NCBI GenBank assembly: GCA_029260315.1
Contig: JAJDDM010000135.1
Span: forward strand, 1 to 64,000
Length of the DNA stretch: 64,000 bases
From: Phycisphaerales bacterium
Lineage (GTDB): Bacteria; Planctomycetota; Phycisphaerae; Phycisphaerales; UBA1924
Direction: 5' to 3'
Numbering within the stretch: the first letter of the stretch is position 1; every line of letters begins with the position of its first letter. Positions 4,791-46,794 of this stretch are shown in pieces. Both the position numbers and the translations under genes were made by a program. The notes below the pieces were generated by a model, which was not told where the DNA came from, did not search any database, and worked only from the letters and a program-made list of their open reading frames with translations.

Positions 4791-6146
4791 CTAGCGGAGC
4801 AAGGCTGCGAGGTCGATCACGGTGGCCGTGCCGCGCTTGCGGCTGCGCGTGCCGAAGTCGTCGCCGCCGATGATCACGTCCGGATCGCCGTCGCCGTCGA
4901 CATCGCCGGCGGCCGCCACCGCGATGCCGAGGCGCTCGCCCGCGAGAGCGCCGTGAAGCGTGGCCAGGACCGAGCCGTCCGCGCCCGAGATGACGGTGAC
5001 CGAGCCCGCGCCGATCGCCGCCGAGTCGTCCGTCGGCTGGCCCACGAGCAGGTCGCCATGGCCGTCGTCGTCGATGTCGCCGGCGTCCGCGAGGAAGGCC
5101 GCCGGGCGGGGCAGGTCGAGGAGTGGCTCACCGGTGGCGCCGGAGTAGACCTTCACGCCGGTGAACTCGGCCATCGAGCGGTAGAGGTCCAGAGTGCCGG
5201 AACCCACGGCGACATCGTCGATGCCGTCGCCGTCCACGTCGCCGAGACCGGCCACGGTGCCCCCGAAGTTGCTCTTCGCGCGCGCGCCTTGGAAGCCGTG
5301 CAGGACCTCGCGGGTCGCGCCGTTGAAGACGCGCACGTAGCCGACGCCGGCGTTGCGGGACTGGTCGGCGCCCACCATGAACTCGTCGATGCCGTCGCCG
5401 TCCAGGTCTCCGGTACGAGCCAAGGACACGCCGAAGCGGTCGCCGTCGGCCTGCCCGCGCAGGGTGGCCAGCTCATGACCGTCGGTGCCCGAGACCAGGC
5501 GCACGAAGTTGCCCGACGGCGCGCCCACGGCCAGGTCGGGCACGCCGTCGCCGTCGAGGTCATCGAGACCGACCGCCGTGCGACCGAGCTCATCGCCGCG
5601 ATCGTCGCCGTGCATGGCGAACAGGACCGAGCCGTCGTGACCGCTGAAGGCCCAGGCGCTGCCGGCGCCCTTGATCTTCGTCGGGTCATCGGCGTGAGCG
5701 CCCACGAGCAGGTCGCCGTGGCCGTCCCCGTCGAGGTCCCCGGCGCCGGCCACCGAGGAGCCGAAGCGCGCCGCGCCCGCGGCCGGGCTGACCAGCTCGA
5801 GCAGGACCCGCCCCGAGCGACCCGAGTACACGACCGCACGCCCGGTCGCGGCGTGTTGGTAGGGCGCGCCGACGATCACGTCGTCGCAGCCGTCGCCGTC
5901 GACGTCGCCGGCACCCGCGACCGCGTCGCCGAAGTGGGCGCCGTAGGCGTCACCGGAGAAGGCGTGCAGTCGCCAACCGTGGTCGACGTCCGCCACGGAC
6001 GTGGTGACCGCGGTGCTGGGGAGCGGGGCGGGGCCCTTGGTGGTGCCGTCGCCGGCGAGAGTGGGTGCCGTCAGGAGGCAACCGAGCGCGAAGGGAGCGG
6101 TGAGTGCCGCGATGCGGCCGGCACGGGAACGCGTCTGGTTCTGCAT
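4791..6146 (-). CDS. Secreted FG-GAP repeat (integrin-alpha-like propeller) protein
   Basis: Repeated GDVDGDGxDDVxVGAP motifs; signal peptide if start is MQNQTRSRAGRIAALTAPFALGCLLTAPTLA. Confidence 0.9.
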   Translation of the reverse strand: MQNQTRSRAGRIAALTAPFALGCLLTAPTLAGDGTTKGPAPLPSTAVTTSVADVDHGWRLHAFSGDAYGAHFGDAVAGAGDVDGDGCDDVIVGAPYQHAATGRAVVYSGRSGRVLLELVSPAAGAARFGSSVAGAGDLDGDGHGDLLVGAHADDPTKIKGAGSAWAFSGHDGSVLFAMHGDDRGDELGRTAVGLDDLDGDGVPDLAVGAPSGNFVRLVSGTDGHELATLRGQADGDRFGVSLARTGDLDGDGIDEFMVGADQSRNAGVGYVRVFNGATREVLHGFQGARAKSNFGGTVAGLGDVDGDGIDDVAVGSGTLDLYRSMAEFTGVKVYSGATGEPLLDLPRPAAFLADAGDIDDDGHGDLLVGQPTDDSAAIGAGSVTVISGADGSVLATLHGALAGERLGIAVAAAGDVDGDGDPDVIIGGDDFGTRSRKRGTATVIDLAALLR

Positions 6147-6490
6147 GTGTGGTGTCCCTCGGTCCTGGCCAAGTGGGTGCGTCTGCCCGCGCTGTCTGCT
6201 GCCCGTCCTGGTGCGCGTCGCTGCCAAGGCTCGCCTGTCCGCCGGTCGAGCGCGACACCCATCGGCTCCGGTACGTCCGAACCTACCCGTCGTGTTCGAA
6301 CCGCGGCAGGGCTGTCACCGAGCCGCCACGCCTCGCCATACGGTGGTCACGACCGAGTGAGCGGTGGGTCGGCGGCGGGCGAAGCCCCAGCCCGGTGGCG
6401 GGACCGCGGCGTGCGTTTCGCCCTCGATCGTCGGAGCAGGCGTATGCTCGATTCCGGCAGGGGTCTGGGCGTGGGAGCCGGGAGTCCATC

Positions 6491-7729
6491 ATGTCGAATC
6501 GTGCTCGTCCGGCCGGTTGGGTCGGTCTTTCCATCGTGGCTCTGGGAGGAGTGCTCGCTCCGGCCGCGGCGGGCGCGGTGCCCGTCGTGGACCCGGCCGG
6601 GGCCCCCGGCGCCGATCACACCGACTTCGGGCTCGCCGTCGAGGCGGCCGCCGAGGGCGACGTGCTCCTGCTCCGACCCGGCGTCCACGACGCGGCGGCG
6701 AGCGAGCGGGTCATCATCGACGGGAAGTCACTCGTCGTCGTGGCCGAGGTCCAGGGGCCCGACGCGATCCTCGACTTCGGGCTCGTGGTGCGGAACCTGG
6801 GCGCGGGTCAGTCGTTCGTTGCGCGGGGCGTGAGCTTCACCGGCGCCGCGGCCGTCTCCTTCGGCCAGTACCAGGTCGAGGTCACCGACAACGTCGGGCC
6901 GGTCTGGTTCGAGGACTGCATCTTCGACGACGCGGGGACGATCGCGAGCGCCGGACCGCTCCACGTCCTGCGCAGCGCCGCGGTGACGTTCCACCGCTGC
7001 AGCCTCGGCGGCGCGCGCGGCACGCCGTTGCGGTCCACCGACTCCGAGGTCCACCTGTACGAGACCGACCTGATCGGTTTCGACGGACCGCCGGACACCA
7101 AGTTCGGCGCGTCGGGCGGGGACGCGGCGGTGATCAGCGGCGGCGAACTCTTCGCCCAGGGTTCGCTGTTCCAGGGCGGGGACGGCGGCCTGAGTCCATT
7201 CAGCTCGTACTCGGGGGATGGCGGGGATTGCCTGGCGCTGCTCGAGGATCCCGTCGTGCGTCACCTCGACTGTGCGTTCGAGCCGGGACTCGCGCCCCTC
7301 GCGGGTGTGTCCTCGGGACTCGACGGCGTGGTGTTCCACGACTTCGATGGTGGCGCGGTGATCGAGGCGTGGCCCGGCAGCTCGTGGTTCTTCGTGGCGT
7401 CGACGCCGGTGCGCGAGGGCGACCTGCTCGATGTCACGGTCCAGGGGCCGCCCAGCCACGTGTTCTTCCTGACCTGGTCGCTCGCTCCCGGCGCGACGCT
7501 GCTGCCGGGCAAGGGCATTTCCGTCGCCGTGTCGCTGCCGTTCTTCTTCCTGCCCATCGCCGCCCTGCCGCCGAGCGGGGCGTTGGCGTTCCCGTTCGTG
7601 GTGCCCGAACTCGGTCCGGCGTTCGAGGCGCTCGTGGTCCACATGCAGGCGGGTTTCAGCGGGCCGAAGGGCGAACTGGCGACGACGGGCGGGACGGCGA
7701 TCGTGTTGCTGGATGCCGCGGTGCCGTAG
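6491..7729 (+). CDS. Secreted right-handed beta-helix/pectin-lyase-fold-like protein
   Basis: Signal peptide MSNRARPAGWVGLSIVALGGVLAPAAAGA followed by parallel-beta-helix-type repeats. Confidence 0.8.
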   Translation: MSNRARPAGWVGLSIVALGGVLAPAAAGAVPVVDPAGAPGADHTDFGLAVEAAAEGDVLLLRPGVHDAAASERVIIDGKSLVVVAEVQGPDAILDFGLVVRNLGAGQSFVARGVSFTGAAAVSFGQYQVEVTDNVGPVWFEDCIFDDAGTIASAGPLHVLRSAAVTFHRCSLGGARGTPLRSTDSEVHLYETDLIGFDGPPDTKFGASGGDAAVISGGELFAQGSLFQGGDGGLSPFSSYSGDGGDCLALLEDPVVRHLDCAFEPGLAPLAGVSSGLDGVVFHDFDGGAVIEAWPGSSWFFVASTPVREGDLLDVTVQGPPSHVFFLTWSLAPGATLLPGKGISVAVSLPFFFLPIAALPPSGALAFPFVVPELGPAFEALVVHMQAGFSGPKGELATTGGTAIVLLDAAVP

Positions 7730-12312: not shown

Positions 12313-12389
12313 GGGGGTGTAGCTCAGTTGGTTAGAGCGCCAGCCTGTCACGCTGGAAGTCGAGGGTTCGAGTCCCTTCACCCTCGCCA
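12313..12389 (+). tRNA. tRNA-Asp(GTC), CCA encoded
   Basis: Full cloverleaf: acceptor GGGGGTG/CACCCTC (one G-T), D-arm GCTCAGTTGGTTAGAGC, anticodon loop CTGTCAC, T-arm GAGGGTTCGAGTCCCTT, CCA. Confidence 0.97.
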
Positions 12390-12502: not shown

Positions 12503-13639
12503 ATGGCCCCTCGAAAGCGTTCGCGCGTTCCCTCGTACCGGCTCCACAAATCCTCTGGCCAGGCGGTCGTGACGCTTGTTGGCAGAGACCACTATCTCGG
12601 CCCCCACGGGTCGAAGCGCAGTCGCGCCGAGTACGACCGGCTGATTGCGGAGTGGTTGTCCACGGGGAGGCGTGTGCCGCCTGGGGACGAGCAGGGCGGA
12701 GTGACGATTGACGAACTTGCAGTGCGCTACTGGGAGTTCGCGAGGGAGTACTACCCGTCGGGGGCCCGGACCAATGAGCTGGAGAACATGCGCTACGCGA
12801 TCCGCCCGTTGCGAAAGCTGTACGGACCTACGGCCGGGGCAGCTTTCGGACCCAAAGCGCTCAAGAGCGTTCGCGATCACATGATTCGCCAGGGCCTCGC
12901 GCGCAATACGATCAACGCGAGAGTTGGTCGCATCAAGCGGCTGTTTCGCTGGGCGGTCGAGAACGAGCTTGTGCCGAGTAGCACGCTGCATGGCCTACAA
13001 GCTGTTCGTGGACTCCCGAGCGGAAGGTCAGCAGCGAGGGAAAGCGAGCCGGTGCGCCCCGTGCCGAGTGAGGATGTGGAGGCCGTGCTTCCGCATCTGT
13101 CTCGTCAGCTTCAGGCGATCGTGCGCCTCATGGACCTCACCGCGATGCGGGTGGGAGAGGTTGTGAAGATGCGCCTGGCGGATATCGACCGGAACCACGA
13201 CCAGGAGACCGGGGTCTGGTCTTACTGTCCACCGAAGCACAAGACGGCGCACCACGGGCATGAGCGCGTAGTCCTGCTGGGGCATCGTGCCCAGGGCTTG
13301 CTCAAGCCGTTCTTGGCGGCGGATCCGCACGCCTATCTGTTCTCACCTCAGGAGGCTGAGCGAGAACGCCGGGGGGTGTTGGGCCAGGAAGTGAGGAGAG
13401 TCAGCGACTACTACCAGACGCATGTGGTGCGAAAGGCCATCAGTCGTGCCTGCGTGAAGGCGAGGGTGCGGCCCTGGCATCCCCATCAACTGCGCCATTC
13501 AGCAGCGACGCGGCTCCGAAAGGCGCACGGCCTGGACGCAGCACGCGTTCTCTTGGGACATCGGTCACCCGCCATCACCGAAGTGTACGCCGAGCTTGAT
13601 CATAGCCGGGCGCTTCAGGTCGTTGCGGTTGACGGCTGA
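12503..13639 (+). CDS. Tyrosine recombinase/integrase
   Basis: RLMDLTAMRVGEVVKMRLADID ... HPHQLRHSAATRLRKAHGLDAARVLLGHRSPAITEVYAELD; starts 114 bp after tRNA-Asp. Confidence 0.93.
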   Translation: MAPRKRSRVPSYRLHKSSGQAVVTLVGRDHYLGPHGSKRSRAEYDRLIAEWLSTGRRVPPGDEQGGVTIDELAVRYWEFAREYYPSGARTNELENMRYAIRPLRKLYGPTAGAAFGPKALKSVRDHMIRQGLARNTINARVGRIKRLFRWAVENELVPSSTLHGLQAVRGLPSGRSAARESEPVRPVPSEDVEAVLPHLSRQLQAIVRLMDLTAMRVGEVVKMRLADIDRNHDQETGVWSYCPPKHKTAHHGHERVVLLGHRAQGLLKPFLAADPHAYLFSPQEAERERRGVLGQEVRRVSDYYQTHVVRKAISRACVKARVRPWHPHQLRHSAATRLRKAHGLDAARVLLGHRSPAITEVYAELDHSRALQVVAVDG

Positions 13640-13710: not shown

Positions 13711-14181
13711 TCATCGAACCTCAGGATTCCAGTGTTCGGACGCGATCCACGAAGTGGTGCTGGAGACAATAAGGAAGTCGAGGACCGGGATACCAAGGAG
13801 TTTTCCCGCTTCCGTGAGGCGGTCGAAGATGTCGCGGTCTTGCATGGACGGGCTCAGGTTTCCCGACGGGTGGTTGTGCGCGCAGATGATGGCGGAAGCG
13901 TTCGAGAGGATGGCTGCCTTGAACACCTCGCGAGGGTGAACGAAGGCGCTGGAAACCGTGCCGATAGAGGCCGTCTCCGCTGAGACGACGCGATGAGCAG
14001 CATCGAGGTGAAGCACGATGAAGTGCTCCCGATCCTTGGCTCCAATCAGCGCTTGGACTGCTTCTGCGGCATCTTGCGGAGCCCGTACGGTGTGAGCTTC
14101 GGCGATGGCGCCGACCTGCTCGATGGTCACTAGTCGCAGCCGTGGGGCCGTGTCGTTCTGTGGCCGGTTCTTGCTCGCCAT
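13711..14181 (-). CDS. RadC-like JAB-domain protein, copy 1
   Basis: MASKNRPQ...; VHPREVFKAAILSNASAIICAHNHPSGNLSPSMQDRDIFDRLTEAGKLLGIPVLDFLIV (HNHPSG...D). Confidence 0.9.
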   Translation of the reverse strand: MASKNRPQNDTAPRLRLVTIEQVGAIAEAHTVRAPQDAAEAVQALIGAKDREHFIVLHLDAAHRVVSAETASIGTVSSAFVHPREVFKAAILSNASAIICAHNHPSGNLSPSMQDRDIFDRLTEAGKLLGIPVLDFLIVSSTTSWIASEHWNPEVR

Positions 14182-14280
14182 GTTCGAGTCCTCCTCGTTT
14201 CCGAGAGGCCCATTCCTCTCAGCCCCCGTGGAGGAGTGGGAGTCAAGAAACGATGAGGATGGGTGTTGCGAGCTGGGCCT

Positions 14281-14420
14281 GCCTACGGGTTGCCCCGTCA
14301 ACGCGTCGAGCGTAGTGACACACTGACCGGAGCTTGGTCGATTCACGTCGCGTAGGCGATCTGCCATGCGGACTTCGACGAGATGCCGAGCCGACCCGGA
14401 AGAGTTGCCACGAGGGCAGT
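14281..14420. repeat. Dispersed repeat R1, copy 1
   Basis: CCTACGGGTTGCCCCGTCAACGCGTCGAGCGTAGTGACACACTGACCGGAGCTTGGTCGATTCACGTCGCGTAGGCG... shared with 36395 and 42697 regions. Confidence 0.75.
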
Positions 14421-14493: not shown

Positions 14494-14763
14494 TTACGGC
14501 GACCGCAAGGGAAGGAAGGCCCGGCCTTTGGCAGGGGGACAGCCGAGGACACATGAGGGCCGACTTGCTGGTAGAATTGGTGGTTTCGCTCGTTGTCGGG
14601 GTCCAGCTTGGTCCTCGCGGCTCGGCGTCTCAAGGCCGCGACGAGCCTCGAAGTAGCCGACTACCAGCCGCCGGAAGTACACGCCCGGGGAGAGTCTCGC
14701 CGTAGGGCTGCTAGCGTCGCCCACAGGGAACTTGCTGCTCGGCAGCAAAGGAGAGCAGGCCAC
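14494..14763 (-). pseudogene. Internally deleted DDE transposase remnant (same family as 34930..36345)
   Basis: LSPGVYFRRLVVGYFE and GLETPSREDQAGPRQRAKP match LAPGVYFRLLMVGYFE and GIETPSREDRAKVDKKRKK of the intact transposase. Confidence 0.7.
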
Positions 14764-15362
14764 TATCGCTTGCGCGGCTTAAGCCTCGCGTTGCCGCGCC
14801 CCCGCCGCGCCATCTGTTGGTTCACACCGGTGACGTTCATCCTATAGCGAAGCATGTCCTTGCTCACGCCGTAGCGAGGAACGGCTTGTACGTCGGTCCA
14901 CCCCTGCTCCCCAATGTGCAGGAGCGCTGGTCGCGGGAGGAGCAGACAACCCCCAAGCCAATCCGCCTCGGCCTCCTGGGAGCTGCTGTAGGTATGCAGC
15001 ATGAGCAGGCCGTCCTCAGCAACATCGATCCTGCTCGGTTCGTGCCCGATGATTAGATGAGCAAGCTCATGCATCAGGTTGCTGGCTGGCCTGCCCCCGG
15101 AGTGCGCGGAATTGAGGATGACGACAGTCGTGTTAGACACGTGGATTGTCACCGCCGACCAACCGCCAGGATCTTCCTCGAGGAGGACCTGCAGCGCGTC
15201 CTCCGGGACGCCCGGTACATCCCTCGCGCTCCACACCGCGACGCCGAGGTGCTCGGCCAGGCTTTGTGGGTCGAGTGGTTCCTGTGGCCGGAGGTCAAGC
15301 TCACGCCGCAGGTTGCTGGACGTGTTCTCGCACCATGTCTTGAAGCCTCGAACGAACGTCAC
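14763..15362 (-). CDS. ImmA/IrrE-family metallopeptidase, copy 1
   Basis: NLMHELAHLIIGHEPSR zinc motif, EAEADWLGGCLLLPRPAL; GTG start overlaps upstream XRE stop (GTGA). Confidence 0.9.
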   Translation of the reverse strand: MTFVRGFKTWCENTSSNLRRELDLRPQEPLDPQSLAEHLGVAVWSARDVPGVPEDALQVLLEEDPGGWSAVTIHVSNTTVVILNSAHSGGRPASNLMHELAHLIIGHEPSRIDVAEDGLLMLHTYSSSQEAEADWLGGCLLLPRPALLHIGEQGWTDVQAVPRYGVSKDMLRYRMNVTGVNQQMARRGRGNARLKPRKR

Positions 15363-15709
15363 TCGGGCGGGGCCTCCGTGGCGAGAATGGCGCGCTGAGC
15401 GGCCAGGATCATCTGGGATAACGCCTGTGCCGTCGTGGGCGAGATGGCCTGAGGCTTTTTGAAGTGGACTGCCACCTTGGCGATGTCGCCGCCCTTTGAG
15501 GGCGACTTCACTCGGAGCACCTCGCCGGGGTCCACTTTCAGCCAGGTGCAGACCTTCCGAAAGGTCTCCAGGTCAGGGAGGTGCCCGCGTTCTACCCGCG
15601 ACAGGGTCGCTGGGCTGATGCCGATCTTCCTGGCGACGTCCCGGATGCCGCGGGTATCACGGGAAGTCCGAAGCAGGCGGCCAAGGGTCTGGAGGGTCGG
15701 GGCGGCCAT
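15359..15709 (-). CDS. XRE-family HTH regulator
   Basis: LGRLLRTSRDTRGIRDVARKIGISPATLSRVERGHLPDLETFRKVCTWL. Confidence 0.88.
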   Translation of the reverse strand: MAAPTLQTLGRLLRTSRDTRGIRDVARKIGISPATLSRVERGHLPDLETFRKVCTWLKVDPGEVLRVKSPSKGGDIAKVAVHFKKPQAISPTTAQALSQMILAAQRAILATEAPPE

Positions 15710-15852
15710 GGAGGGCGGTGTTTCTCCGGTGAGAAAGTGTTTGACCGCGTGGACGGCGATGTTAGCGTCTTACGCATGAGACACCGTTGCACGGCCCCTA
15801 CGGTCGGTCAAGTCCGGGCCGGGCATTTCCTACCCACAGATCGGAGATTCCG

Positions 15853-16107
15853 ATGCCGACGACCATGATCACCCTCACGTTCAGCTCCACCGCCGGGGAC
15901 TTCACCGGCGAGTTCCCGGTCGACCTCATCCTGGGGGACGTCAAGAAACGCGTCATGGAGCAGTTCGGCCTGGACCCCAGCAAGGCGGACCAGGTGATTG
16001 TCACGCTCGACGGTCGCGTGCTCGACGAGACGAAGACCCTCGAGGAGCTGAACCTCCCCGACGGCGCGGTGCTCGTCATCGAGCGCAAGGAGGTGACGAA
16101 GATCTAG
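15853..16107 (+). CDS. Ubiquitin-like beta-grasp protein (single domain)
   Basis: MPTTMITLTFSSTAGDFTGEFPVDLILGDVKKRVMEQFGLDPSKADQVIVTLDGRVLDETKTLEELNLPDGAVLVIERKEVTKI follows the ubiquitin pattern. Confidence 0.85.
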   Translation: MPTTMITLTFSSTAGDFTGEFPVDLILGDVKKRVMEQFGLDPSKADQVIVTLDGRVLDETKTLEELNLPDGAVLVIERKEVTKI

Positions 16108-16115
16108 GTCTCCGC

Positions 16116-16538
16116 ATGGACATTGAAACGACCAGAGCCACAGTCCACAAGCTGGTGGACAAGGTCCGCCAGTCGGCCATGGCGGACGCGATGGGATGGG
16201 GTCTCGACCACCAGGATCTCATCCTGTTTGTTGGGATACGATCTCGGCAGCGCAAGGACCGCTCGTTTCTTTTGAGGGTCTCGTTCGACGATCTCCCGAG
16301 GCGGGCGCCCTCGTACGTTTTCGTCAACCCGTCAACGAAGCAGCACGATGATGCGGGCTGGCCACCGAACGTGCGCCATGGGAGGGCGCCCCCCGGCATT
16401 TGCACACCGGGGACGCGGGAGTGCTGCGAGCACTACCACGTGAACGATCCTCAGTATCAGTGGAGATACACAGACGACGCGCTGCTTTGCACGCTACTGG
16501 AGATCCAGAAGATGGTGGAGAAGGGAGTGGGAACGTGA
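16116..16538 (+). CDS. Putative prokaryotic E2-like protein
   Basis: 140 aa between Ubl and JAB/E1 genes; Cys/His-rich GICTPGTRECCEHYHVNDPQYQW; assigned mainly by operon position. Confidence 0.6.
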   Translation: MDIETTRATVHKLVDKVRQSAMADAMGWGLDHQDLILFVGIRSRQRKDRSFLLRVSFDDLPRRAPSYVFVNPSTKQHDDAGWPPNVRHGRAPPGICTPGTRECCEHYHVNDPQYQWRYTDDALLCTLLEIQKMVEKGVGT

Positions 16539-17155
16539 GGTGGCCGTGGCGCCCGGGCCGGGAAGACAATGTGGAATCGCCGTCGAGGCCAGCCTATCCA
16601 ACAGTGCGACCCTATGCGGGGCCGGTGCCAGGAAGGCGCGCACGCCGGGTCCCGGAGCGTCCCGGCCGCGTCTATGTCCCGCTCGATGTGATGCGAGCGA
16701 CGAGCGATGTCATGAGGCGGCATGGCCGTGAGAGACGCGAGGCCTACGTCTGGTGGGGTGGCTACTTCCTGCCGGACGGTGACGCGCAGGTCGTCACCGC
16801 TCTCTATCCGGATGTGCCCACCGAGCATGGCAGGGTGCACCTTGACCACCAGAACCTGATCGCGCTGCATGAACGCCTGCGGGCGCTCGACCTGGTACTG
16901 GTCGCAGAGTTGCACACACATCCGCCGGGCGCCGGCGGACAGAATGACGTGGATGCCGCGAATGCAGCCGCAACCTACCGCGGCTTCGTCACCATTGTAG
17001 TCCCCGACTTTGCCGCTCCGATCCTCCACGATCTGCGGACGGCCTACGTGTACGAGTACGAGGGAGGCGATCAGTGGCGCGAGCTGACAGAGACAGAGAT
17101 CGAAGGGCGCTTTCTGGTCGAGGAGCCCTTTCATGAGGTCAACATGGCGCGATGA
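16535..17155 (+). CDS. JAB/MPN (JAMM) domain putative deubiquitinase-like protease
   Basis: VLVAELHTHPPGAGGQNDVDAANAA: E...HxHx7(N)x2D JAMM signature; GTG start overlaps E2 stop. Confidence 0.85.
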   Translation: MRWPWRPGREDNVESPSRPAYPTVRPYAGPVPGRRARRVPERPGRVYVPLDVMRATSDVMRRHGRERREAYVWWGGYFLPDGDAQVVTALYPDVPTEHGRVHLDHQNLIALHERLRALDLVLVAELHTHPPGAGGQNDVDAANAAATYRGFVTIVVPDFAAPILHDLRTAYVYEYEGGDQWRELTETEIEGRFLVEEPFHEVNMAR

Positions 17156-18747
17156 GCCAGTCTGATCGAACGCTTGATGTGCTGGAGGTGCTCTCTCAGG
17201 GCTCGCTTTCGCGAAGCGTGTTCGCGCAGGTTCTAGCTCCGGCCTCGGTGCGCCTGACGCTGAGCCCGGAGGTCGCCGATGAGGTTCAGGCGCAGGCCCT
17301 TTACACGTTCCTCGTCAACCTAGTCGGTCGGATGTACCCCATCGTCCAGAACCTTGATCTGGCCTTTCCACCTTCAGCACGCCTGCGCTTCACGCCTCCC
17401 CGGTCTCGCCGCTCCACGTTAGAACAGCATGTGTCTCAGTATCTCAAGAGCCTACAGCCGGATCTCGCGTGGCACTTGAACCGCCCGGACTGTCAGTCCG
17501 TGAGCTGCGAAGTCGTTGTCGGGCGGTCATCAGTGGGCGCAGAGCACCTGATCAGCGTTGGAAGCGATGGCTGGATTGCGCGGGTGTCCTCGGCCGAGAA
17601 CATGGTGGTCGGCGGGGGGCTGAACCCCGTGGGCGCTTACGCCGCAGCGTGCATGGCCGCGGGAGAGGTGACCAAGCGTGTTCTCGCCTCTCACAAGGAC
17701 TTATTTCCTGGCGTTCCCGTTGTCCCACTTGAGGGGTCGTTGTCCTTCTCGACGCTCACCTTCGCCTCCTCCACGGAGGCTACGATTGACGGACCGAACC
17801 CGGACCTTCCCGAGCCTGTCGATCTCCAGCGGCTCACCATCGTTGGACTTGGAGCTGGGGGAATGGCGCTCGCGTATACTCTAGCGACCGTTGAGGGCTT
17901 GTCTGGCCGTGTTCTTGGGATCGATCCCGACATCGTCTCTGTCACCAATCTGAATCGGCTCGTGAGCAGCGGAGCAGGCGACGTCGCTGCAAAGCGAGCG
18001 AAGGTTGAGGTTCTCGACGGAGTTTTCTCTCACGTGGCCGGGGTGGTCGTTCAAGGCCATGCGCTTCCCTATCGGGACGCCTCCCCTCTGCTCGCCAGTG
18101 TGGATCTTCGACACGTCGTCGCCGCTGTCGACACGCGGGAAGCACGCCGCGATCTCCAACACGACACACCGGCGGTGTTATGGGACGCCGCGGCAACTGA
18201 AACCGGAGAATTCTACGTCTGGCGGCTGATCTTCGGCACTACAGAATGCATGGAGTGCAAGCACCCGCCAGGGAAGGCGGACCCGGAAGTCGCTCAGGCT
18301 CGCGTCTTGGCGGAGACCCTCGGCCTGAACCAGGGCACGTGGCTCACGAAGACACGCGACAACGAGCCATTTACGGCCCTGCAAGCAGAGGTGATCAAGC
18401 AGTCCATCGAATCAGCACAGAGTCCGGCATCACCGCCTTCAGTAGGCGAGCGCTTCAGCGACTGGTACCCAGGGCAGTGCGGCCAACTTCAGCTCGAACC
18501 CATTGAAGAGGAAGCGCCGATACCCTTTGCTCCGGTAATGGCCGGCGTGCTGCTGGCCGGCGAAGTCATTAAAGAGCGGTGCTTCCCGGAGTTGTCCCTC
18601 GACGGCGGCTATTGGAACACTCTGCTCGGGAAGTTCATGGTTCACAACAGGCCGGTCCGGCGACCACGCCGTTCGGACTGCGAACTCTGCCATGACGAGA
18701 ACTTTGTTGTGCAACACACGCGGATTGATGCCAGCGATCCTACCTGA
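17152..18747 (+). CDS. E1/ThiF-like adenylating enzyme
   Basis: LTIVGLGAGGMALAYTLATVEGLSGRVLGIDPDIVSVTNLNRLV Rossmann fold with NLNR; CMEC and CELC paired cysteines; ATGA overlap with JAB gene. Confidence 0.87.
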   Translation: MSQSDRTLDVLEVLSQGSLSRSVFAQVLAPASVRLTLSPEVADEVQAQALYTFLVNLVGRMYPIVQNLDLAFPPSARLRFTPPRSRRSTLEQHVSQYLKSLQPDLAWHLNRPDCQSVSCEVVVGRSSVGAEHLISVGSDGWIARVSSAENMVVGGGLNPVGAYAAACMAAGEVTKRVLASHKDLFPGVPVVPLEGSLSFSTLTFASSTEATIDGPNPDLPEPVDLQRLTIVGLGAGGMALAYTLATVEGLSGRVLGIDPDIVSVTNLNRLVSSGAGDVAAKRAKVEVLDGVFSHVAGVVVQGHALPYRDASPLLASVDLRHVVAAVDTREARRDLQHDTPAVLWDAAATETGEFYVWRLIFGTTECMECKHPPGKADPEVAQARVLAETLGLNQGTWLTKTRDNEPFTALQAEVIKQSIESAQSPASPPSVGERFSDWYPGQCGQLQLEPIEEEAPIPFAPVMAGVLLAGEVIKERCFPELSLDGGYWNTLLGKFMVHNRPVRRPRRSDCELCHDENFVVQHTRIDASDPT

Positions 18748-18749
18748 AG

Positions 18750-18990
18750 GCCGATTGCGGACTCCCTCGACTACGGGCTGTTCGCGTGACATGCCTCTTG
18801 GGTCAGTCCAGGCGCAGGCTCTGCTCGGCCACAGCGACCCGAAGCTCACGAGCACGGTCTATTGCACCTGGCGCCGGACGACCTGCGCGAGGCCGTGGGA
18901 CGGCTCAGCGGTGGGGGCGGTCCGCGACCCTCTGGCAGCATATTGGCAGATGCCGAGGGCGCCGCGAATGCCGACCGTCATAGGTCCATG
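18750..18990 (+). pseudogene. Relic of tyrosine integrase C-terminus, frameshifted
   Basis: VQAQALLGHSDPKLTSTVY in one frame continues as HLAPDDLREAVGRLSGGG in another. Confidence 0.8.
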
Positions 18991-19215
18991 TCAGCAATGG
19001 AGCGGGCGACCGGGTTCGAACCGGCGACATTCAGCTTGGGAAGCTGGGTAGCGGAACATGCCGCCGGCAATGACATCGGGGGACATTCGATGCCAAGTGA
19101 GGACACGCCAGAGAGTTGCGACGATGGAGACGGGTGATTTGGGCTCTGGTGAGAGGGCATCAGCGGACAATCGAAGACCGACTTACTGGCAGCAAATGGC
19201 AGAGGTCGCAGGTTC
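18990..19215. repeat. Dispersed ~220-bp repeat R2, copy A
   Basis: Aligns by eye with 24887-25115 and 42880-43100 (ACATCGGxGGACAxTCGATGxCAAGTGAGGACAC... CTGGCAGCAAATxGGCAG). Confidence 0.8.
18998..19049 (-). other. tRNA-Gly(CCC) 3' half fragment (attP-like core)
   Basis: Minus strand CCCAGCTTCCCAAGCTGAATGTCGCCGGTTCGAACCCGGTCGCCCGCTCCA: anticodon arm (CCC), T-arm, acceptor 3' strand, CCA; 5' half absent. Confidence 0.8.
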
Positions 19216-19622
19216 GATAGTCCCCCCTGAGGGCCAAAGGGGAGAGCGCGGTCTCTTGGTTCGATTCTGCGTCGGGAACCACCGCTCGGCCGGCATCGAG
19301 GCGGTGAGGCAGCGGGTCGCGGAGGCGGGGCGTCTTCGGCGACGAGCGGGCTTGGCCCCGGTCTCCAGCGGAGCGGAACGGCCCGAGGTCGGGGCTCCGG
19401 TGCATCCGTCACTCCGTATGGATGGGAGTTGGCCGTTGGGGACAGCGAGCGAGGTGGCTAAGCCAGCCTTTGGACAGACCGAGGAAGATTCCTGAGAATT
19501 CCTGGCTGCCGTCTGTTCGGATTCCGCTCTCTCCAGTTAGGCGGGCAGCTCCCGTGCCATCGGCGGCGCTCGCGCCCACCTTCCGCAGACACATCTCACC
19601 TACTGGCGCATGGAGTAGCAGC

Positions 19623-20912
19623 ATGCAAAGGCAGACCCTCTTCTTAGCGGCCTTGGTGATCATGACCTTCGCCGCCTTGCCAGGGAACTCATCAGCGCAG
19701 CAGTTCCCCAAGTTGGACTCATCTTGGACCGTCACGGTGAACGGCCAGAGTGTCCAGGTCAACAATGACGGGAGCTTCGTCATCCCGAACGTCTCTGCGG
19801 CCGACCAGTTTGGGCCCGGGGGCCCGGGCACGGCGCCCGACTTCGTCAGTGACAACACACTGCGCGTCATTGGCGTGAGCACGGCGGACGGCGTTACGCG
19901 GTATGCGTACAGCGATGCGTTCCAGTTCGTGGCGGGGCAGGAGTTCTCGGTAGGGCAAATGACGATTACGGACGTCCCGCCCCCGTTTCCTCAGTCGATT
20001 GAGGCAACGCCGGATGACATAGTTCTGACGGCCAGCGGCCAGGCCACGGTTGTTCGCGTCGATGGTGAGCTCATCGATGGGAGCATTATTGATGTCACCG
20101 GAGCCGTTGCCGGAACCACCTACCTGACAAGCAATCCGGGGATCTTGGAAGTCGACTCGTTCGGGGTTGCGACGGCCATCAGCGATGGGCCGGCCTTCGT
20201 CACCGCCATCAACGAGGGTGCTGCCTCTGTAGTGCTGATCCAAGTCGTACTGGGCGATCCGTTGACGGAAGTCCGAGGATTCGTCCAGCTCGAGGACGGC
20301 ACCTCCGTGGTTGGCGCCGACGTAACGATCGGGGGGCAGGGACAAACGGCCCTATCGCTGGCCGATGGCAGCTTTGTGATCCCAAACGTGGCGACGCAGC
20401 TGGGTCTCTTGAACGTAACGGCCAGCGCTGTTATTGGAACAGAGTCCTTTGCAGGTTCCTCAGGTTCAGTCGAGCCCGTGCCCGGCCTGCTCACGGATGT
20501 CGGTTTGATCACCATGAGTGAGTTCACAGCCGTCACAATTACGTTCGACGCCGGAAGTGGGAGCCCTCCAAGCTACACAGAGTCCGGTCTCACCGTGGTT
20601 TCCGGCCAGGATCACCTCCATCTAGGAGATAACAGTCTTGATGGGAGTCCTGATCTCTACAACCACTCTGGATGTTGCTCGACGCCTTACGAATTCACAT
20701 TTGGCGGAGCTCCGTTTGGTGTCGTCAGTTTGGATATAGTGAATCTCCCGTCGGGAACGCACACATTCACATCGTCAAGTGGAGCAGTAGAGATCGTCGC
20801 CGGGCCTGGAGTTCATGTGTTTTCGGCGTCAGGATGGACAGGGATCACGTCGTTTAGGTGGGACGCGACGGGAAACATGATGATCGACGATCTCGTGATA
20901 GAGGCTGAGTAA
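19623..20912 (+). CDS. Secreted protein with carboxypeptidase-regulatory-like segments
   Basis: Signal peptide MQRQTLFLAALVIMTFAALPGNSSA; VRGFVQLEDGTSVVGADVTIGGQG...SLADGSFVIPNV. Confidence 0.7.
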   Translation: MQRQTLFLAALVIMTFAALPGNSSAQQFPKLDSSWTVTVNGQSVQVNNDGSFVIPNVSAADQFGPGGPGTAPDFVSDNTLRVIGVSTADGVTRYAYSDAFQFVAGQEFSVGQMTITDVPPPFPQSIEATPDDIVLTASGQATVVRVDGELIDGSIIDVTGAVAGTTYLTSNPGILEVDSFGVATAISDGPAFVTAINEGAASVVLIQVVLGDPLTEVRGFVQLEDGTSVVGADVTIGGQGQTALSLADGSFVIPNVATQLGLLNVTASAVIGTESFAGSSGSVEPVPGLLTDVGLITMSEFTAVTITFDAGSGSPPSYTESGLTVVSGQDHLHLGDNSLDGSPDLYNHSGCCSTPYEFTFGGAPFGVVSLDIVNLPSGTHTFTSSSGAVEIVAGPGVHVFSASGWTGITSFRWDATGNMMIDDLVIEAE

Positions 20913-23900
20913 TGGCCAGCGTCAAGATCAGGGCGTGGAGTCGAACAATGAGCGAGATGAATTCGCGGATGACTCTTGGCCTGCTAGGCCACAGAGTGAA
21001 GGGGGCGACAGCTGTGTATCGGACGAACATGCAAGTAGTATTAATCACCCTGTCAATCCTTGTGGCACTCGCGCCAACCGGGCACTCGACCCAAGGTGTG
21101 GGGGGCGGCACTCAGGACAAGATTGCTGTTTGTCACGTTCCTCCCGGGAACCCTGAGAACCCGGTTACGATCCTGATCTCTCCCTCAGCGCTTCCGGCGC
21201 ACCTTGCTCACGGTGATGTGCTCGGAAACTGCGGAGAGCCAGTCTCAACGACCGGGCCGACACTCGATCCAGTGCTGAGCCCCACGGCTTCGACGAGCAC
21301 GACGATCACTGGAGTGTCGCTCGAGTTGGGGAGCTCAATCCTCGTAGAGGGCGGTGCTCAGTCGGTGGAAGTGCCCGTGGAGGCTGACCAGACCTTCGAG
21401 GTTCCCGTAGATCTGAATCCAAATGCAAACAACCACCTATTCGTGACTGAGATCTTCGACGACGGAACTTCTAGCCCAATCGTAGGCGTTGAGGTGATCC
21501 AAGATGGAACACCACCGACGCTGTTCATCGACTTCCCGCTGGATGGTGCCGAGTTGACCACCGAGACCAGTGATGTGGCAGGACGTGTTAGTGATCTACT
21601 CAGTGGGTTCATGGGCCTTACAGTGACCGTCAATGGCATCGAAGCAGTCGTTGACATTGGCATCGGTACCAACGGCACGTTCTTTGCCGAGAGTGTCCCT
21701 CTTCTCCAGGGTCAACCCACGCTGGTTCAATCCATAGGTGTGGATGGTGTCGGAAACTCAGCCAGCGCGGCTGTCACCGTCACTCTTGTCGAGGTAGACG
21801 AGGGGGCGCCGTTCATGACGGCGATCTCCGGAAACGGTCAGAACGGGCTAGTTGATACTCAACTCGCTCTTCCCATCATCGTTCAACTTCTCAAGGGAGA
21901 TGGCAGTCCGTTCGGCGGAAAAGTCGTGACGTTTGACGTGGATCGAAGCAACGGTCAACTGAGTGATGGGCCGGTCGGCGGAACGCTTACGCACCAGGCT
22001 CTCACTGATGCGAACGGCTTTGCTCAGGCATACTGGACGCTCGGAAGCGATGCTGGTTGCGGTAATAACCGGGTTGCAGTCACGTCGACGGACATCCAAG
22101 GCACGGTATTCTTCTGCGCTAGCGCAACCGCAGGTCCGGCCTCACAGATCAACGTGGGTTCGGGCGATATGCAGAAGGCGGAAGTATTGGGGCCCGCCAC
22201 GGAGCCTCTGCGCGTGTGGGTCAGCGATTCCTGCAATGGAGTTGAGGGAGTGCCGGTCACTTTCATCGTTGAGGGCGGGGGTGGAGCTGTAAACGGCCTA
22301 CCGGTGTTCACGGTCACGACGAGCTCCACAGGGCATGCGGAGGTAGGCTTCCTGACAGGTGCCGAGCCGGGCAACAACACGGTTGTGGCCGATTTCTTCG
22401 GGAACTCCGGGAATCCGGTCACGTTCACGATTGTGGGCGTAGAGAGCAACCCGGAGCTGCCAACGAGTCTGGTCGGCGTGGTGGTCGACAATGGAGGCCA
22501 GCCAATCCAGGGGGCTTCGTGCACACTCGAAGTGGGAGGACTGATGCTCGGCCCGAGTGCGTCCGATCTCGACGGACGGTTCGAGTTCACGGACACGGTG
22601 GTGTCGGGTCCGGCCGAGCTCCAAATCGACGGACTTGTGGCCACGCACGTCGGTGGCATCGGTGGGATGGACGTGTTGCCCGGGAGCTTCCCGGCTCTCG
22701 AGTTCGAACTGGTACTTGTGCCGAACGCCGAGAATTCGCTGCCGAGCCCCGTCAAGCTACCCCCGCTCGATCCACTTAACGCACGTGCCTACAACGGCAC
22801 GGCTGATGTGACACTCACAGTGGTGGGCATCGAGGGGCTGTCGATGACGGTGAAGGCGGGCTCGGTTACGTTGGCTGATGGCAGCGTGCCCAGCCCCGCG
22901 AACCCGACCATCCTGTCGCTGAACCAGGTTCATGCGGACGATGTTCCGATGCCCATGCCTGATGGCGCTGCACCTCCGTTCGCGTGGACGCTACAGCCGG
23001 CTGGCGCGACGTTCGACCCTCCCGTCGCCATCACGTACCCGAACATGTCCGGCCTCCCACCCGGAGCGATCGCTTACTTCCTTAGTTTCGATCATGACAC
23101 CGGAGAATTCGAGATCATCGGAAGTGGTGAAGTGACGGGTGATGGGCTGTCTATCGTCTCGGATCCGGGTGTCGGCATCGCGACGGCCGGTTGGGGCTGC
23201 AACTGCCCTCCGTACTCGATCACTGACGACTGTAAGAACTGCAACGTGCAAGTAATGGGGCCCGATTTTGCGTGTACAGGTTCGAGTCAAACCTATGTGG
23301 CGAAGGCCACTGGCGGAGGAACGCTCACATGGAAGGTCTCCGATGGGGCGTCCTCCTCATCCTCGAGTGCGACTGTAAGCGACGGTGAGTGCGTATCCCT
23401 AGATGTGAGCTTTAACTCTGAGGGACCTGCTGGAGGACCACAAAGTTCCGGAAACAAGGTCGAGGCGACACTTGTCTGCAGTAGTGGGCTGACTGACCAG
23501 GGCGGAGTTGGAGTCGGAGTGGCATCCAGCGTAGATCCAGGCTCGGTTCCAATTACATTCACGCCTGGTTCACCTGCGCCAACACCTAGTGGGTGGGGTG
23601 TAACGGTATTCGATGACCCCCTGGTCGATATTACTGCCTACTGTGATCATGGCGCCGGAGTTTGGAGGTGTAGAGTGACCGAGGCTGAGGCTACGCACCA
23701 CCAGGCCGTTCGGCTGTTGCCGGGTGTTGTAGAGGTCACGCAGGCGCTTGTGAATTCAACGACAAACTGTTCCACTCTGAATACGATGATCAGTAGTCTG
23801 CTCAGTGTCGCGAACCAGGGGGCCGATTCCGGCTACTACATGTTGGCAGCTGTTCAGGCGCACGAGGATGTGCATGTCCAGCAGTACATAGCGGGGGTTA

Positions 23901-24169
23901 CGCCACTGTATGCGACGTTTGTCTTGTCGGCAGAGGCCCTTACAGTCCCCCTTTCGAGCCATACAAATGCAGCCGATGCGACCACTGCTCTGAAGGGCCT
24001 TGCCGCCTACGTGACCGCATTCGATGCGTTTTGCCTTGGGGAAACGGCAGTGGCCAATCAAACCGCTTCGCACGTGCCGGCTACGCCCTTCGTGCAGGCT
24101 GAACTCGGAGTCGTAAACCCCATGATTACGAATATCAACACTCAGAAGGCAACTTTGGGATGCCCATAG
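20912..24169 (+). CDS. Large secreted Ig-like/Big_1 protein with C-terminal HExxH motif
   Basis: CHVPPGNPENPVTILISPSALPAHLAHGDVLGNCG motif; Big_1-like repeats; VQAHEDVHVQQYIAG; overlaps upstream stop. Confidence 0.75.
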   Translation: MASVKIRAWSRTMSEMNSRMTLGLLGHRVKGATAVYRTNMQVVLITLSILVALAPTGHSTQGVGGGTQDKIAVCHVPPGNPENPVTILISPSALPAHLAHGDVLGNCGEPVSTTGPTLDPVLSPTASTSTTITGVSLELGSSILVEGGAQSVEVPVEADQTFEVPVDLNPNANNHLFVTEIFDDGTSSPIVGVEVIQDGTPPTLFIDFPLDGAELTTETSDVAGRVSDLLSGFMGLTVTVNGIEAVVDIGIGTNGTFFAESVPLLQGQPTLVQSIGVDGVGNSASAAVTVTLVEVDEGAPFMTAISGNGQNGLVDTQLALPIIVQLLKGDGSPFGGKVVTFDVDRSNGQLSDGPVGGTLTHQALTDANGFAQAYWTLGSDAGCGNNRVAVTSTDIQGTVFFCASATAGPASQINVGSGDMQKAEVLGPATEPLRVWVSDSCNGVEGVPVTFIVEGGGGAVNGLPVFTVTTSSTGHAEVGFLTGAEPGNNTVVADFFGNSGNPVTFTIVGVESNPELPTSLVGVVVDNGGQPIQGASCTLEVGGLMLGPSASDLDGRFEFTDTVVSGPAELQIDGLVATHVGGIGGMDVLPGSFPALEFELVLVPNAENSLPSPVKLPPLDPLNARAYNGTADVTLTVVGIEGLSMTVKAGSVTLADGSVPSPANPTILSLNQVHADDVPMPMPDGAAPPFAWTLQPAGATFDPPVAITYPNMSGLPPGAIAYFLSFDHDTGEFEIIGSGEVTGDGLSIVSDPGVGIATAGWGCNCPPYSITDDCKNCNVQVMGPDFACTGSSQTYVAKATGGGTLTWKVSDGASSSSSSATVSDGECVSLDVSFNSEGPAGGPQSSGNKVEATLVCSSGLTDQGGVGVGVASSVDPGSVPITFTPGSPAPTPSGWGVTVFDDPLVDITAYCDHGAGVWRCRVTEAEATHHQAVRLLPGVVEVTQALVNSTTNCSTLNTMISSLLSVANQGADSGYYMLAAVQAHEDVHVQQYIAGVTPLYATFVLSAEALTVPLSSHTNAADATTALKGLAAYVTAFDAFCLGETAVANQTASHVPATPFVQAELGVVNPMITNINTQKATLGCP

Positions 24170-43395: not shown

Positions 43396-44547
43396 ATGGC
43401 GAGCAAAAATAGAACAGCCGAGGGCGCAGCGGCAGACGCGGAGGTCATCGGTGAGGATCTCTTCCAACTCGCCCGACTGGCGCTGACTGGCCGAAAGCAA
43501 GACGTTCAGCTCCACATCCGACGCATCGCGAAGCGGTACCGAAAGGCCACGCCAGAGATTGCCGATCGGCTTCAGGATCTTCTGAGGGAGGCGCCAAGCA
43601 GGTCCTCTCCGCTGCGAGGCACAGACGGAGGGGCTTCGGCGCTCCCCGTGGATCTCGATTCTCGGCTGGAGTTGGTGCGCTGCGAGAGCGTTATCGAGCT
43701 TGACGCTGAGCCCATCCTCGATGAGAGGCTCGGCAGCCATCTTCAGCAGGTGGTGGAGGAGAGAAGGCAGCGAGTCCACCTGGATGAGCAAGGTCTCTCG
43801 CCAGCGCGTTCACTGCTGTTCACTGGACCGCCAGGAGTCGGAAAGACGATGGCAGCTCGCTGGGTTGCCCGTGAGCTGCAACTCCCGTTGCTGATCTTAG
43901 ATCTCTCCGCCGTTATGAGCAGTTTCCTCGGACGTACGGGAAACAACCTCCGGTTTGTGCTCGACTACGCAAAGAAGATTGAGTGCGTCCTGCTCTTCGA
44001 CGAGCTCGATTCAATCGCGAAGAGACGAGACGACGCAACGGAGATCGGAGAGCTAAAGCGCTTGGTCACAGTTCTACTTCAAGAGATAGATGACTGGCCG
44101 TCCAATGGCCTTCTGATTGCTGCCACAAACCACCCCGAACTCTTAGACCCTGCTGTGTGGCGGCGATTCGATATGGTGTTGGATTTCCCAATGCCAGACG
44201 AGGACGCCGTTGCAGAAGCGGTCAGCCGATTCCTTGATGCAGACTCGAGAGTAGACCCCTTGTGGAGACGCGTGCTTGGAAAGGCTCTTCGAGGCGCGTC
44301 GTTCAGCGATATCGAACGATGTGCGCTGCATCTTCGGAGAGCGCTAGCGCTCAAGGGTGGCGCAGGGCGTGAAAGTTTCTCTCGTCTCGTCCGCTCACAT
44401 GTTGAGCCGCGACCGTGGCAGGAGCGCGTAGAGCTGGCGCGCGAGTTTTCTAAGATGGATGGACTGTCTCAAAGGTTGGTGCACGAACTCACCGGTATCA
44501 GCAGAGAAAAGATCCGAAAGGAAAGCAGGGAAGTCCAAGGGGAGTAG
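43396..44547 (+). CDS. AAA+ ATPase
   Basis: LLFTGPPGVGKTMAARWVA Walker A, VLLFDELDSIAKRRDD Walker B, LIAATNHPELLDPAVWRRFD. Confidence 0.93.
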   Translation: MASKNRTAEGAAADAEVIGEDLFQLARLALTGRKQDVQLHIRRIAKRYRKATPEIADRLQDLLREAPSRSSPLRGTDGGASALPVDLDSRLELVRCESVIELDAEPILDERLGSHLQQVVEERRQRVHLDEQGLSPARSLLFTGPPGVGKTMAARWVARELQLPLLILDLSAVMSSFLGRTGNNLRFVLDYAKKIECVLLFDELDSIAKRRDDATEIGELKRLVTVLLQEIDDWPSNGLLIAATNHPELLDPAVWRRFDMVLDFPMPDEDAVAEAVSRFLDADSRVDPLWRRVLGKALRGASFSDIERCALHLRRALALKGGAGRESFSRLVRSHVEPRPWQERVELAREFSKMDGLSQRLVHELTGISREKIRKESREVQGE

Positions 44548-44553
44548 GAGACG

Positions 44554-46794
44554 ATGCCGATAGAAGACCAACCAAACTTCTTGCTCGGGCACGGTGAGCG
44601 CCTCGTTGAGCCTGTCACCATTCAGAGTGGAGGTGGCCCGAGGAAGCTCCCGTACAGCTTTGCGCAGGCACGCGAGCGTTTGGCTCCTCAGGTCGACGCT
44701 GCTTCGCACTCCCTGGACGCCTTGCCAGACAGCGCGTGCCCAAATGACGAAGTAGTTGGGATCATCACTCTCCACCCACAGTGGCTAGCGAAGAGCTACC
44801 ACCCAACCGCACTGCTACGTGAGGTAGGTCTAGAGACGGTTGGAAGCCGTCCAAGAATGGTGAAGCCTGAAAAGTGGACTAAGAAGGGTGAGGTTGAGGA
44901 GGCGCCGAGTACCGAGCTGTTCGTTGCCGGACCGAGAGATGCGTTTCGTGACTGGGCCACCACGCTTCCAGGCTGGTCGCCAGCGACGGATGTTCTGCGC
45001 AAAGAACTAGCGCGCCTAGAAGCTGTAAGGGCCCCTGAGCGCAAGGATCGTGTTCAGAAGATACGCTCGCGAGAACAAGAGCTTGTGCTGGAAGTGGGGT
45101 TGCACGGCGGTCGCGGTGAGTCTGGCCTCTACATTCTGGATGCGTTTCAGAGATTCGTAGAGGGGCTTGGTATGGAGGCAGTTCATGCCAAGAAGTTGTT
45201 CGCGGGGCGCCTCTGCTTCATGCCAGTCTTGGGCGAGCGTTCCAGGCTGAGTGAGCTTTGGAAGTTCTCGTACCTGAGAGTTGTTCGAGAGATGCCGCGG
45301 CTTCGACGACTCGATTCCGTCCTTCGGTCCGTTTCCGTCCCCGCACCGGGCCCCGTTATTCTCCCCGACGCGGATCCTGTTGATCCTGGGTTGCGTGTGG
45401 CGGTGCTGGACGGAGGGACACCCAAGGGTGCGGGACTAGAGCGATGGGTTACCCCATACGACGCCAAGGGGGTTGGCGGCGATGTCCCGAAGTACCTCAG
45501 TCACGGTGCGCACGTGAACTCTGCGGTGCTTTTTGGCGCGTTGTCTGCCGAGGAAGGGGCACAGCCATACGCAGCTGTTGACCATTTCCGAGTACTCGAC
45601 AGCGATTCGGGCAAGGATGACGAACTCTACGATGTGATGCATCGTGTTCGCGATGTGATGCAGTCGAACAACCACAGTTTCTTCAACCTGAGCATCGGCC
45701 CCGAGCTACCGGTTGAGGATACGGAAGTGCATGCCTGGACATGCATGCTTGACGAACTACTCGCGGATGGGAATCGACTTGCCGCAGTGGCCGTCGGGAA
45801 CGGCGGCGACCTGGATTCGCAAGCTGGGCACAATCGAGTTCAAGTACCGGCGGACGGAGTCAACGCCCTCTCGGTGGGGTCAGCGGATACGCAGGGTGCG
45901 AAGTGGCGGCGCGCTTGGTACAGCTCAGTGGGTCCGGGTCGGAGTCCGGGCTTGATAAAGCCGGATGTGCTGAGCTTTGGCGGTATCGAGCAAGAGCCTT
46001 TCTGGGTTGTGGACTCCAACTCTCCAGCGAAGCTGTACGGCGCCCTTGGTACGAGCTTCGCGTCGCCTGCCGCGCTGAGGCATGCGCTCGGAATACGTGC
46101 GCACTTCCGTGAGAGTCTGAATCACTTGGCGATTCGAGCGCTCCTCGTTCACTGCGCCGAAGATGCGGATGGCGATCGGCTGCAACATGGGTGGGGGCGG
46201 CTGCCCGACGAGCTTGACTCATACGTAGTCTGTCCGGATGGAAGTGCTCGAATCGTGTATCAAGGCGAAGTTGAGCCTGGCGGATGGGTTCGGGCTCCCA
46301 TTCCATTGCCCGACGGCGACTTGCCCGGGAACGTCCGGATCCGCGCGACCTTCTGCTACGCAACCCGGATAGATCCGAACCACCCGGGTAACTACACGCA
46401 GAGCGGCCTCGTCATTACGTTTCGTCCAAACGATGCGGTATTCGACGAGAAGTCAGAGCATCCCGAGCAACCCAAGTCTAAGTCCTTTTTTAAGCGCGGC
46501 GAATACCAAACCGAACGGGAGCTACGCCAGGACGCCCTTAAGTGGGAAACGGTGATCCACGCGGACCAAACAAAGCGAGGCCGCGGCCTCAAGAATCCAG
46601 TCTTCGACGTGAACTACCAAGTGCGTGAGGAAGGGCAGACGGTCGCACATGATCGAGCGCTCAAGTATGCGCTTGTCATCACAGTGTCTTCAAAGCGCAT
46701 CCACGACATGTACAACCGTGTGCTGCGCAGGTATCAAAGTCAGCTCCAGCCCTTGCGGCCAGTTGTGAAGATCCCAGTTCGTACACGCATGTGA
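44554..46794 (+). CDS. S8 (subtilisin-like) serine peptidase
   Basis: VAVLDGGTP (Asp), LSHGAHVNSAVLFG (His), YGALGTSFASPAALRHALG (Ser). Confidence 0.92.
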   Translation: MPIEDQPNFLLGHGERLVEPVTIQSGGGPRKLPYSFAQARERLAPQVDAASHSLDALPDSACPNDEVVGIITLHPQWLAKSYHPTALLREVGLETVGSRPRMVKPEKWTKKGEVEEAPSTELFVAGPRDAFRDWATTLPGWSPATDVLRKELARLEAVRAPERKDRVQKIRSREQELVLEVGLHGGRGESGLYILDAFQRFVEGLGMEAVHAKKLFAGRLCFMPVLGERSRLSELWKFSYLRVVREMPRLRRLDSVLRSVSVPAPGPVILPDADPVDPGLRVAVLDGGTPKGAGLERWVTPYDAKGVGGDVPKYLSHGAHVNSAVLFGALSAEEGAQPYAAVDHFRVLDSDSGKDDELYDVMHRVRDVMQSNNHSFFNLSIGPELPVEDTEVHAWTCMLDELLADGNRLAAVAVGNGGDLDSQAGHNRVQVPADGVNALSVGSADTQGAKWRRAWYSSVGPGRSPGLIKPDVLSFGGIEQEPFWVVDSNSPAKLYGALGTSFASPAALRHALGIRAHFRESLNHLAIRALLVHCAEDADGDRLQHGWGRLPDELDSYVVCPDGSARIVYQGEVEPGGWVRAPIPLPDGDLPGNVRIRATFCYATRIDPNHPGNYTQSGLVITFRPNDAVFDEKSEHPEQPKSKSFFKRGEYQTERELRQDALKWETVIHADQTKRGRGLKNPVFDVNYQVREEGQTVAHDRALKYALVITVSSKRIHDMYNRVLRRYQSQLQPLRPVVKIPVRTRM

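Follow-up and report, generated by a model that had tools for sequence, protein, structure and literature searches.

A probable, highly divergent Bil-lineage operon encoding a ubiquitin-like protein without a C-terminal glycine in a Phycisphaerales bacterium

Introduction

Bacterial operons of the Bil type combine a ubiquitin-like protein (Ubl) with E1, E2 and JAMM-family enzymes, and the locus described here raises the question of whether such an operon can be a conjugation module when its Ubl lacks a C-terminal glycine. The locus lies within a 64,000-nucleotide stretch of a Phycisphaerales contig (JAJDDM010000135.1), the whole of which is called the window. The reading we favor, with a probability of about 0.78, is that the operon represents a highly divergent conjugation module of the Bil lineage, most likely an inducible anti-phage system residing on an integrated island.

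Results

Operon organization and the three enzymes

The operon spans positions 15853-18747 of the forward strand and comprises an 84-aa Ubl in the BilA position (15853..16107), a 140-aa E2 in the BilB position (16116..16538), a 206-aa JAMM/JAB peptidase with a GTG start in the BilC position (16535..17155) and a 531-aa E1 in the BilD position (17152..18747). Eight bases separate the Ubl and E2 genes, followed by two 4-base overlaps, GTGA (where the JAMM start overlaps the E2 stop) and ATGA (between JAMM and E1). This packing had been described in an earlier, sequence-only reading of the locus, and is confirmed along with the motifs then quoted, HTHPPGAGGQNDVD in the JAMM protein and GLGAGGMAL and NLNR in the E1; the proposed correspondence to BilABCD (Ubl, E2, JAMM DUB, E1) is also borne out, the same gene order being found at the loci of relatives.

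The E1 matches Pfam ThiF (9.8e-13) and Prok-E2_C (2.3e-6), both over curated cut-offs, and the PADLOC BilD model (2.4e-9), with PADLOC E1-E2 models far lower; residues 54-524, nearly the full length, match the solved BilD structure 8tyz_A at 1.1e-19. Its N-terminus forms a Prok-E2_C/IAD-like region, and its adenylation domain retains GLGAGG, Asp258, Asn266, Arg269, Lys284 and Asp327. The candidate catalytic residue is Cys443, in a Cys443-Gly444 pair that is invariant in the alignment; the catalytic residue of BilD is Cys417 (PMC11354881). Two zinc-binding CxxC pairs (C366/C369 and C510/C513) also occur in the aligned relatives. The JAMM protein matches the PADLOC BilC model (9.4e-18) and the solved BilC 8tyx_B (1.1e-5), and carries its metal and catalytic residues (Glu69, His127-x-His129, Asp140), with Asn replacing the usual Ser of the motif. 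As in Bil, the JAMM protein is a BilC homologue with its metal ligands in place. A further BilC match, at locus L009, was rejected as false, that locus being a ThiS-like/cysteine-metabolism locus.

The E2-position protein, in which a UBC fold and a catalytic Cys had been proposed as the features to seek, shows both. It aligns with rhizobial BilB at E=7.7e-6 (hhalign), and a family profile of ten E2-position proteins, the window protein included and the rhizobial ones left out, finds among solved structures Ubc 3we5 (0.0033) and BilB 8tyz_C (0.0045), then Mms2; for comparison, a rhizobial E2 of the set matches solved BilB at 4.5e-58. The AlphaFold2 (AF2) model has an alpha-4beta-alpha arrangement, with BilB the best PDB match (TM 0.66) and UBE2L6/UbcH8 next; its confidence is medium (pLDDT 69, below 50 for residues 83-94, part of the active-site loop), and because the input alignment included BilB relatives, it is supportive without being independent. 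Cys96 (16401-16403, in ICTPGTRE), Glu102 and His108 align with Cys138, Glu144 and His151 of BilB, whose CEHH motif consists of Cys138, Glu144, His146 and His151 (PMC11354881); the structural His146 of rhizobial BilB is replaced by Cys104. The PADLOC BilB model did not match the window E2. Independent support comes from weak tblastn matches of the E2 (E 0.009-0.3) on plasmids of four distant genera, Ralstonia, Deinococcus, Mesorhizobium and Janibacter, each of which occupied the second position in an operon of the same order.

The matches to BilC and BilD models, to Pfam ThiF and Prok-E2_C and to the solved BilD and BilC structures argue that this gene set did not come together by chance, and the window E2, JAMM and E1 each outscored 200 of 200 shuffles with profiles from each group of relatives. 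From their sequences, the three enzymes can be assigned to the Bil lineage with high confidence. The sequence-only reading had regarded a single-domain Ubl, an odd E2 and two CxxC pairs as divergent details; all three are standard in the rhizobial branch of Bil, the one with solved structures. Its description of the E2 as rich in Cys and His holds, but these residues correspond to the CEHH active site of that branch and are not unusual.

The ubiquitin-like protein and its C-terminus

The Ubl matches two Pfam families, YukD (1.2e-5) and ubiquitin (1.7e-5), in each case slightly under the cut-off. A single-sequence AF2 model nevertheless predicts one beta-grasp domain with a pLDDT of 87, whose top PDB matches are ubiquitin, SUMO and ISG15. 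The PADLOC BilA model did not match the protein; this model is narrow, since it also missed the rhizobial L011 Ubl. Scans with the window Ubl gave no close relative.

Comparison of C-termini revealed a feature overlooked by the sequence-only reading: the tail of the window Ubl (...GAVLVIERKEVTKI) has no Gly in its last 13 residues, whereas in every one of the other 38 Ubls that could be read cleanly in related operons, many of them close rhizobial copies, the last Gly lies 0-3 residues from the C-terminus (examples are GGGV, KAGVAGA, SGSR and RVNG). Two loci were left out of this count: L039, where an E2 sits in the Ubl slot, and L012, a Bradyrhizobium barranii plasmid locus whose Bil-like Ubl gene (~2560-2720) looks frameshifted, with GGGG-stop in another frame. 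The E2 start at L012 is annotated too late. A glycine-ended Ubl is a defining feature of Bil, and since the window Ubl does not end in this way, the operon is not classed as a plain Bil member. The tail may be real, altered or mis-sequenced; either it is handled differently, or the Ubl acts non-covalently, or its gene is damaged or mis-sequenced.

It is possible, though unlikely, that the operon is an ordinary functional Bil system whose true Ubl is glycine-ended, the 3' end of the gene having been mis-assembled or freshly frameshifted. The window sequence rests on a single MAG contig, and moving back by one frame past codon 79 yields ...LVIERK-GG-DEDLGLR-MDIETT, whose GG falls close to where rhizobial Ubls have Lys-Ala-Gly; the related L012 gene is frameshifted at precisely the same place. 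Against this, GC content by codon position holds the annotated frame up to its stop, and the shifted frame meets no stop before it enters the E2 gene, as in no relative. The GG itself is encoded by GGAGG within a Shine-Dalgarno-like stretch (AAGGAGGTGA) and may thus be a coincidence. Programmed -1 frameshifting into GG was considered separately and rejected, as inspection revealed no slippery heptamer and codon-phase composition favors the annotated frame.

An equally tentative explanation holds that the E1, E2 and JAMM proteins are of Bil origin while the Ubl is now a non-conjugated partner, or the system is decaying. Eukaryotic Hub1/UBL5 is a ubiquitin-like partner of this non-conjugated kind. 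In its favor are the missing glycine and the intact fold of the Ubl, which is predicted with confidence from the single sequence. The structural matches include Hub1; this match is not special, as many ubiquitin-fold proteins match the model. The Ubl gene also differs from its operon partners in GC3 (0.96 versus 0.70-0.77), and some active-site residues of JAMM and E2 are substituted. Yet the E1 catalytic residues, the E2 Cys and His and the JAMM metal ligands are kept in four open frames, which would be unexpected after loss of conjugation. The Ubl of a Bil-lineage defense operon could also have lost its C-terminal glycine while E1, E2 and JAMM stayed intact; it would then be activated at a different residue or assist the E1-E2 pair as a non-covalent cofactor, a proposal we regard as distinctly doubtful. 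A genuine glycine-free tail would challenge the rule that a terminal glycine is needed in such cascades, and would provide a simple way of testing that rule.

Regulatory genes and other ubiquitin-like pathways

Divergently transcribed from the operon, on the reverse strand, are genes for a Cro/C1-type HTH repressor in the CapH position (15359..15709; Pfam HTH_3 2.3e-9) and an ImmA/IrrE (Peptidase_M78) metallopeptidase with an HELAH (HExxH) motif in the CapP position (14763..15362; Pfam 4.4e-15). The latter is weakly CapP-like (PADLOC capP 3.5e-7), and the PADLOC CapH model did not match the window HTH protein. The divergent intergenic region contains a short, weak inverted repeat, TTTCTC-CGGT-GAGAAA (15721..15736), a possible operator. 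An HTH+ImmA/IrrE pair, or an HTH gene, adjoins relatives of the operon in Ralstonia, Deinococcus, Mesorhizobium, Bradyrhizobium and one genome of the same family, with the HTH at the same place in L002, L004, L008 and L012; the Ralstonia locus (L002) has a bona fide CapH (4e-26) and CapP (2e-71).

Regulators of the CapH/CapP type are common in Bub and CBASS (PMC13373217), and a ubiquitin-like operon beside such a pair might on that ground be assigned to Bub or to type II CBASS. This is very improbable and was rejected: no CD-NTase or effector gene lies beside the operon, and the E1, whose PADLOC E1-E2 scores are far under that for BilD, is nearest to BilD (1e-19), scoring 0.43 against BubCD and 0.68 against MoeB among solved structures. 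Of the "Bil/Bub-like" label originally given to the operon, only the first half therefore stands, through the BilC and BilD matches.

In a maximum-likelihood tree, the window E1 stands beside the rhizobial Bil E1s (88/58; 89/92 for a wider node that includes a Bradyrhizobium E1), a placement that is moderate given the many long branches, while the MoeB/ThiF proteins from this bacterial family group apart in a clade of their own (100/100), on which basis a MoeB/ThiF origin was rejected. The phylogeny proposed earlier as a check thus sets the E1 apart from that clade; the outcome named as fatal to the sequence-only reading, an E2-position protein without a UBC fold and an E1 within MoeB/ThiF clades, did not arise on either count. 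Family-wide, matches to the E1 profile were nearly all MoeB/ThiF-like; scans with the E1 gave no close relative, nor did scans of phage records. A pathway for sulfur carriage or cofactors, pairing MoeB/ThiF with a ThiS/MoaD-like carrier, could account for the ThiF-family adenylation domain, but is scarcely credible for an E1 outside that clade with an N-terminal Prok-E2_C region and a Cys-bearing insert, accompanied by a UBC-fold E2 and a JAMM protein and by no metabolic neighbors, the more so as a sulfur carrier would likewise need a C-terminal Gly.

Genomic setting

To the left of these genes, a tyrosine recombinase/integrase (12503..13639, forward strand; Pfam Phage_integrase 3.1e-18) begins 114 bases past a tRNA-Asp gene (12313..12389). 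GC3 is about 0.9 left of the recombinase and about 0.6-0.8 over much of the right side; the recombinase at a tRNA and the drop in GC3 suggest an acquired island, of which the integrase/tRNA-Asp site is the likely edge. No second copy of the tRNA-Asp 3' end, which would mark the far attachment site, occurs in the window. Between the integrase and ImmA genes lies a reverse-strand gene for a RadC-like JAB-domain protein (13711..14367; Pfam RadC 1.2e-37), typical cargo of mobile elements. The window also contains an IetAS anti-phage pair at 43396..46794 on the forward strand (IetA 3.6e-83, IetS 1.9e-42), so that the contig carries at least two defense modules, if the Bil-like operon is counted as one.

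Other features adjoin the operon on its right. An integrase C-terminal remnant (LLGHSDPKLTSTVY) precedes an apparent reverse-strand tRNA-Gly 3' fragment at 18990..19060 (GGTTCGAACC...CTTGGGAAGC), where ARAGORN calls no tRNA; these are possibly scars of another element. Two large secreted-looking proteins, Ig-like or adhesin-like and of low GC3, are encoded directly downstream (19422..24169, forward strand).

Discussion

Proposed mechanism

For the window operon, the analysis establishes the order of the genes, their homology, the predicted folds of E2 and Ubl and the retained active-site residues of E1, E2 and JAMM, and we infer conjugation, its target, a role in defense and the mode of regulation from the characterized systems. 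As a Bil-lineage module, it would operate through a BilD-like E1 that uses ATP to adenylate the Ubl at its C-terminus and then, by homology, loads the Ubl on Cys443, from which it would move to Cys96 of the BilB-like UBC-fold E2. The E2 would join the Ubl to a target, which in characterized Bil is a phage virion protein, a modification that lowers phage infectivity, and the JAMM protease would trim the Ubl or take it off. Expression may be governed by the upstream pair, the ImmA/IrrE protease probably cutting the divergent HTH repressor upon DNA damage and so switching the operon on, as with CapH/CapP. An anti-phage function is the presumed outcome. The weak point of the conjugation model is the Ubl tail, which is without the glycine that the chemistry apparently requires in all relatives.

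Comparison with known systems

The nearest known system is the rhizobial Bil operon of the NGR234 type (8tyx, 8tyz and 8tz0), with which the window operon shares gene order, a separate JAMM protein, a single-domain Ubl, a BilB-type E2 with a Cys-x-Pro/Ala-Gly-x-Arg-Glu motif and a BilD-type E1 with a Cys insert, the rhizobial E1s being nearest in the tree. It differs in an E1 identity of only about 27%, in the lack of the long insert that precedes the active site in rhizobial BilB, in a Ubl without the C-terminal Gly of its rhizobial counterparts, and in its divergent HTH+ImmA pair. A UBC-fold E2 with a CEHH site is thereby indicated to persist without the rhizobial insert. The NGR234-type operon corresponds to row 6c of Iyer et al. 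2006 (Pfam DUF2604 / Metal_CEHH / JAB / Prok-E2_C-ThiF), where the protein in the E2 slot was predicted to be 'metal-binding' (PMC1779556); by the match of that slot to BilB and the UBC fold, this protein is the E2 itself. In the rhizobial locus L011, on Rhizobium etli p42a, genes for TIR-domain and caspase-family proteins (6145..7503), possible linked effectors, come after the Bil operon.

A second set of Bil-like operons, on rhizobial and other plasmids (L037-L043), has the same Ubl-E2-JAMM-E1 order as the window but differs in a longer Ubl protein ending in RVNG or RVEG, an E2 motif of LYLPCDR and a UvrD-type helicase encoded upstream; the E1s form their own 100/100 clade. These two-Ubl proteins may be compared with the ISG15-like two-domain BilA (PMC11354881). 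Copies on haloarchaeal plasmids (L013, L034 and L035) preserve the same order, and this type of operon is therefore not confined to bacteria.

In its control region, the window operon resembles the CapH/CapP-regulated Bub and CBASS operons, in which a divergent HTH gene and an ImmA/IrrE protease likewise lie upstream. CapW or CapH/CapP adjoin 219 of 544 Bub operons, and CapK/CapS adjoin five Bil operons (PMC13373217); the window pair adds to the evidence that Bil operons can be under CapH/CapP-type switches. Overall, the comparison would broaden Bil-type conjugation to include a lineage that shares about 25% identity with any other sequence found in this analysis.
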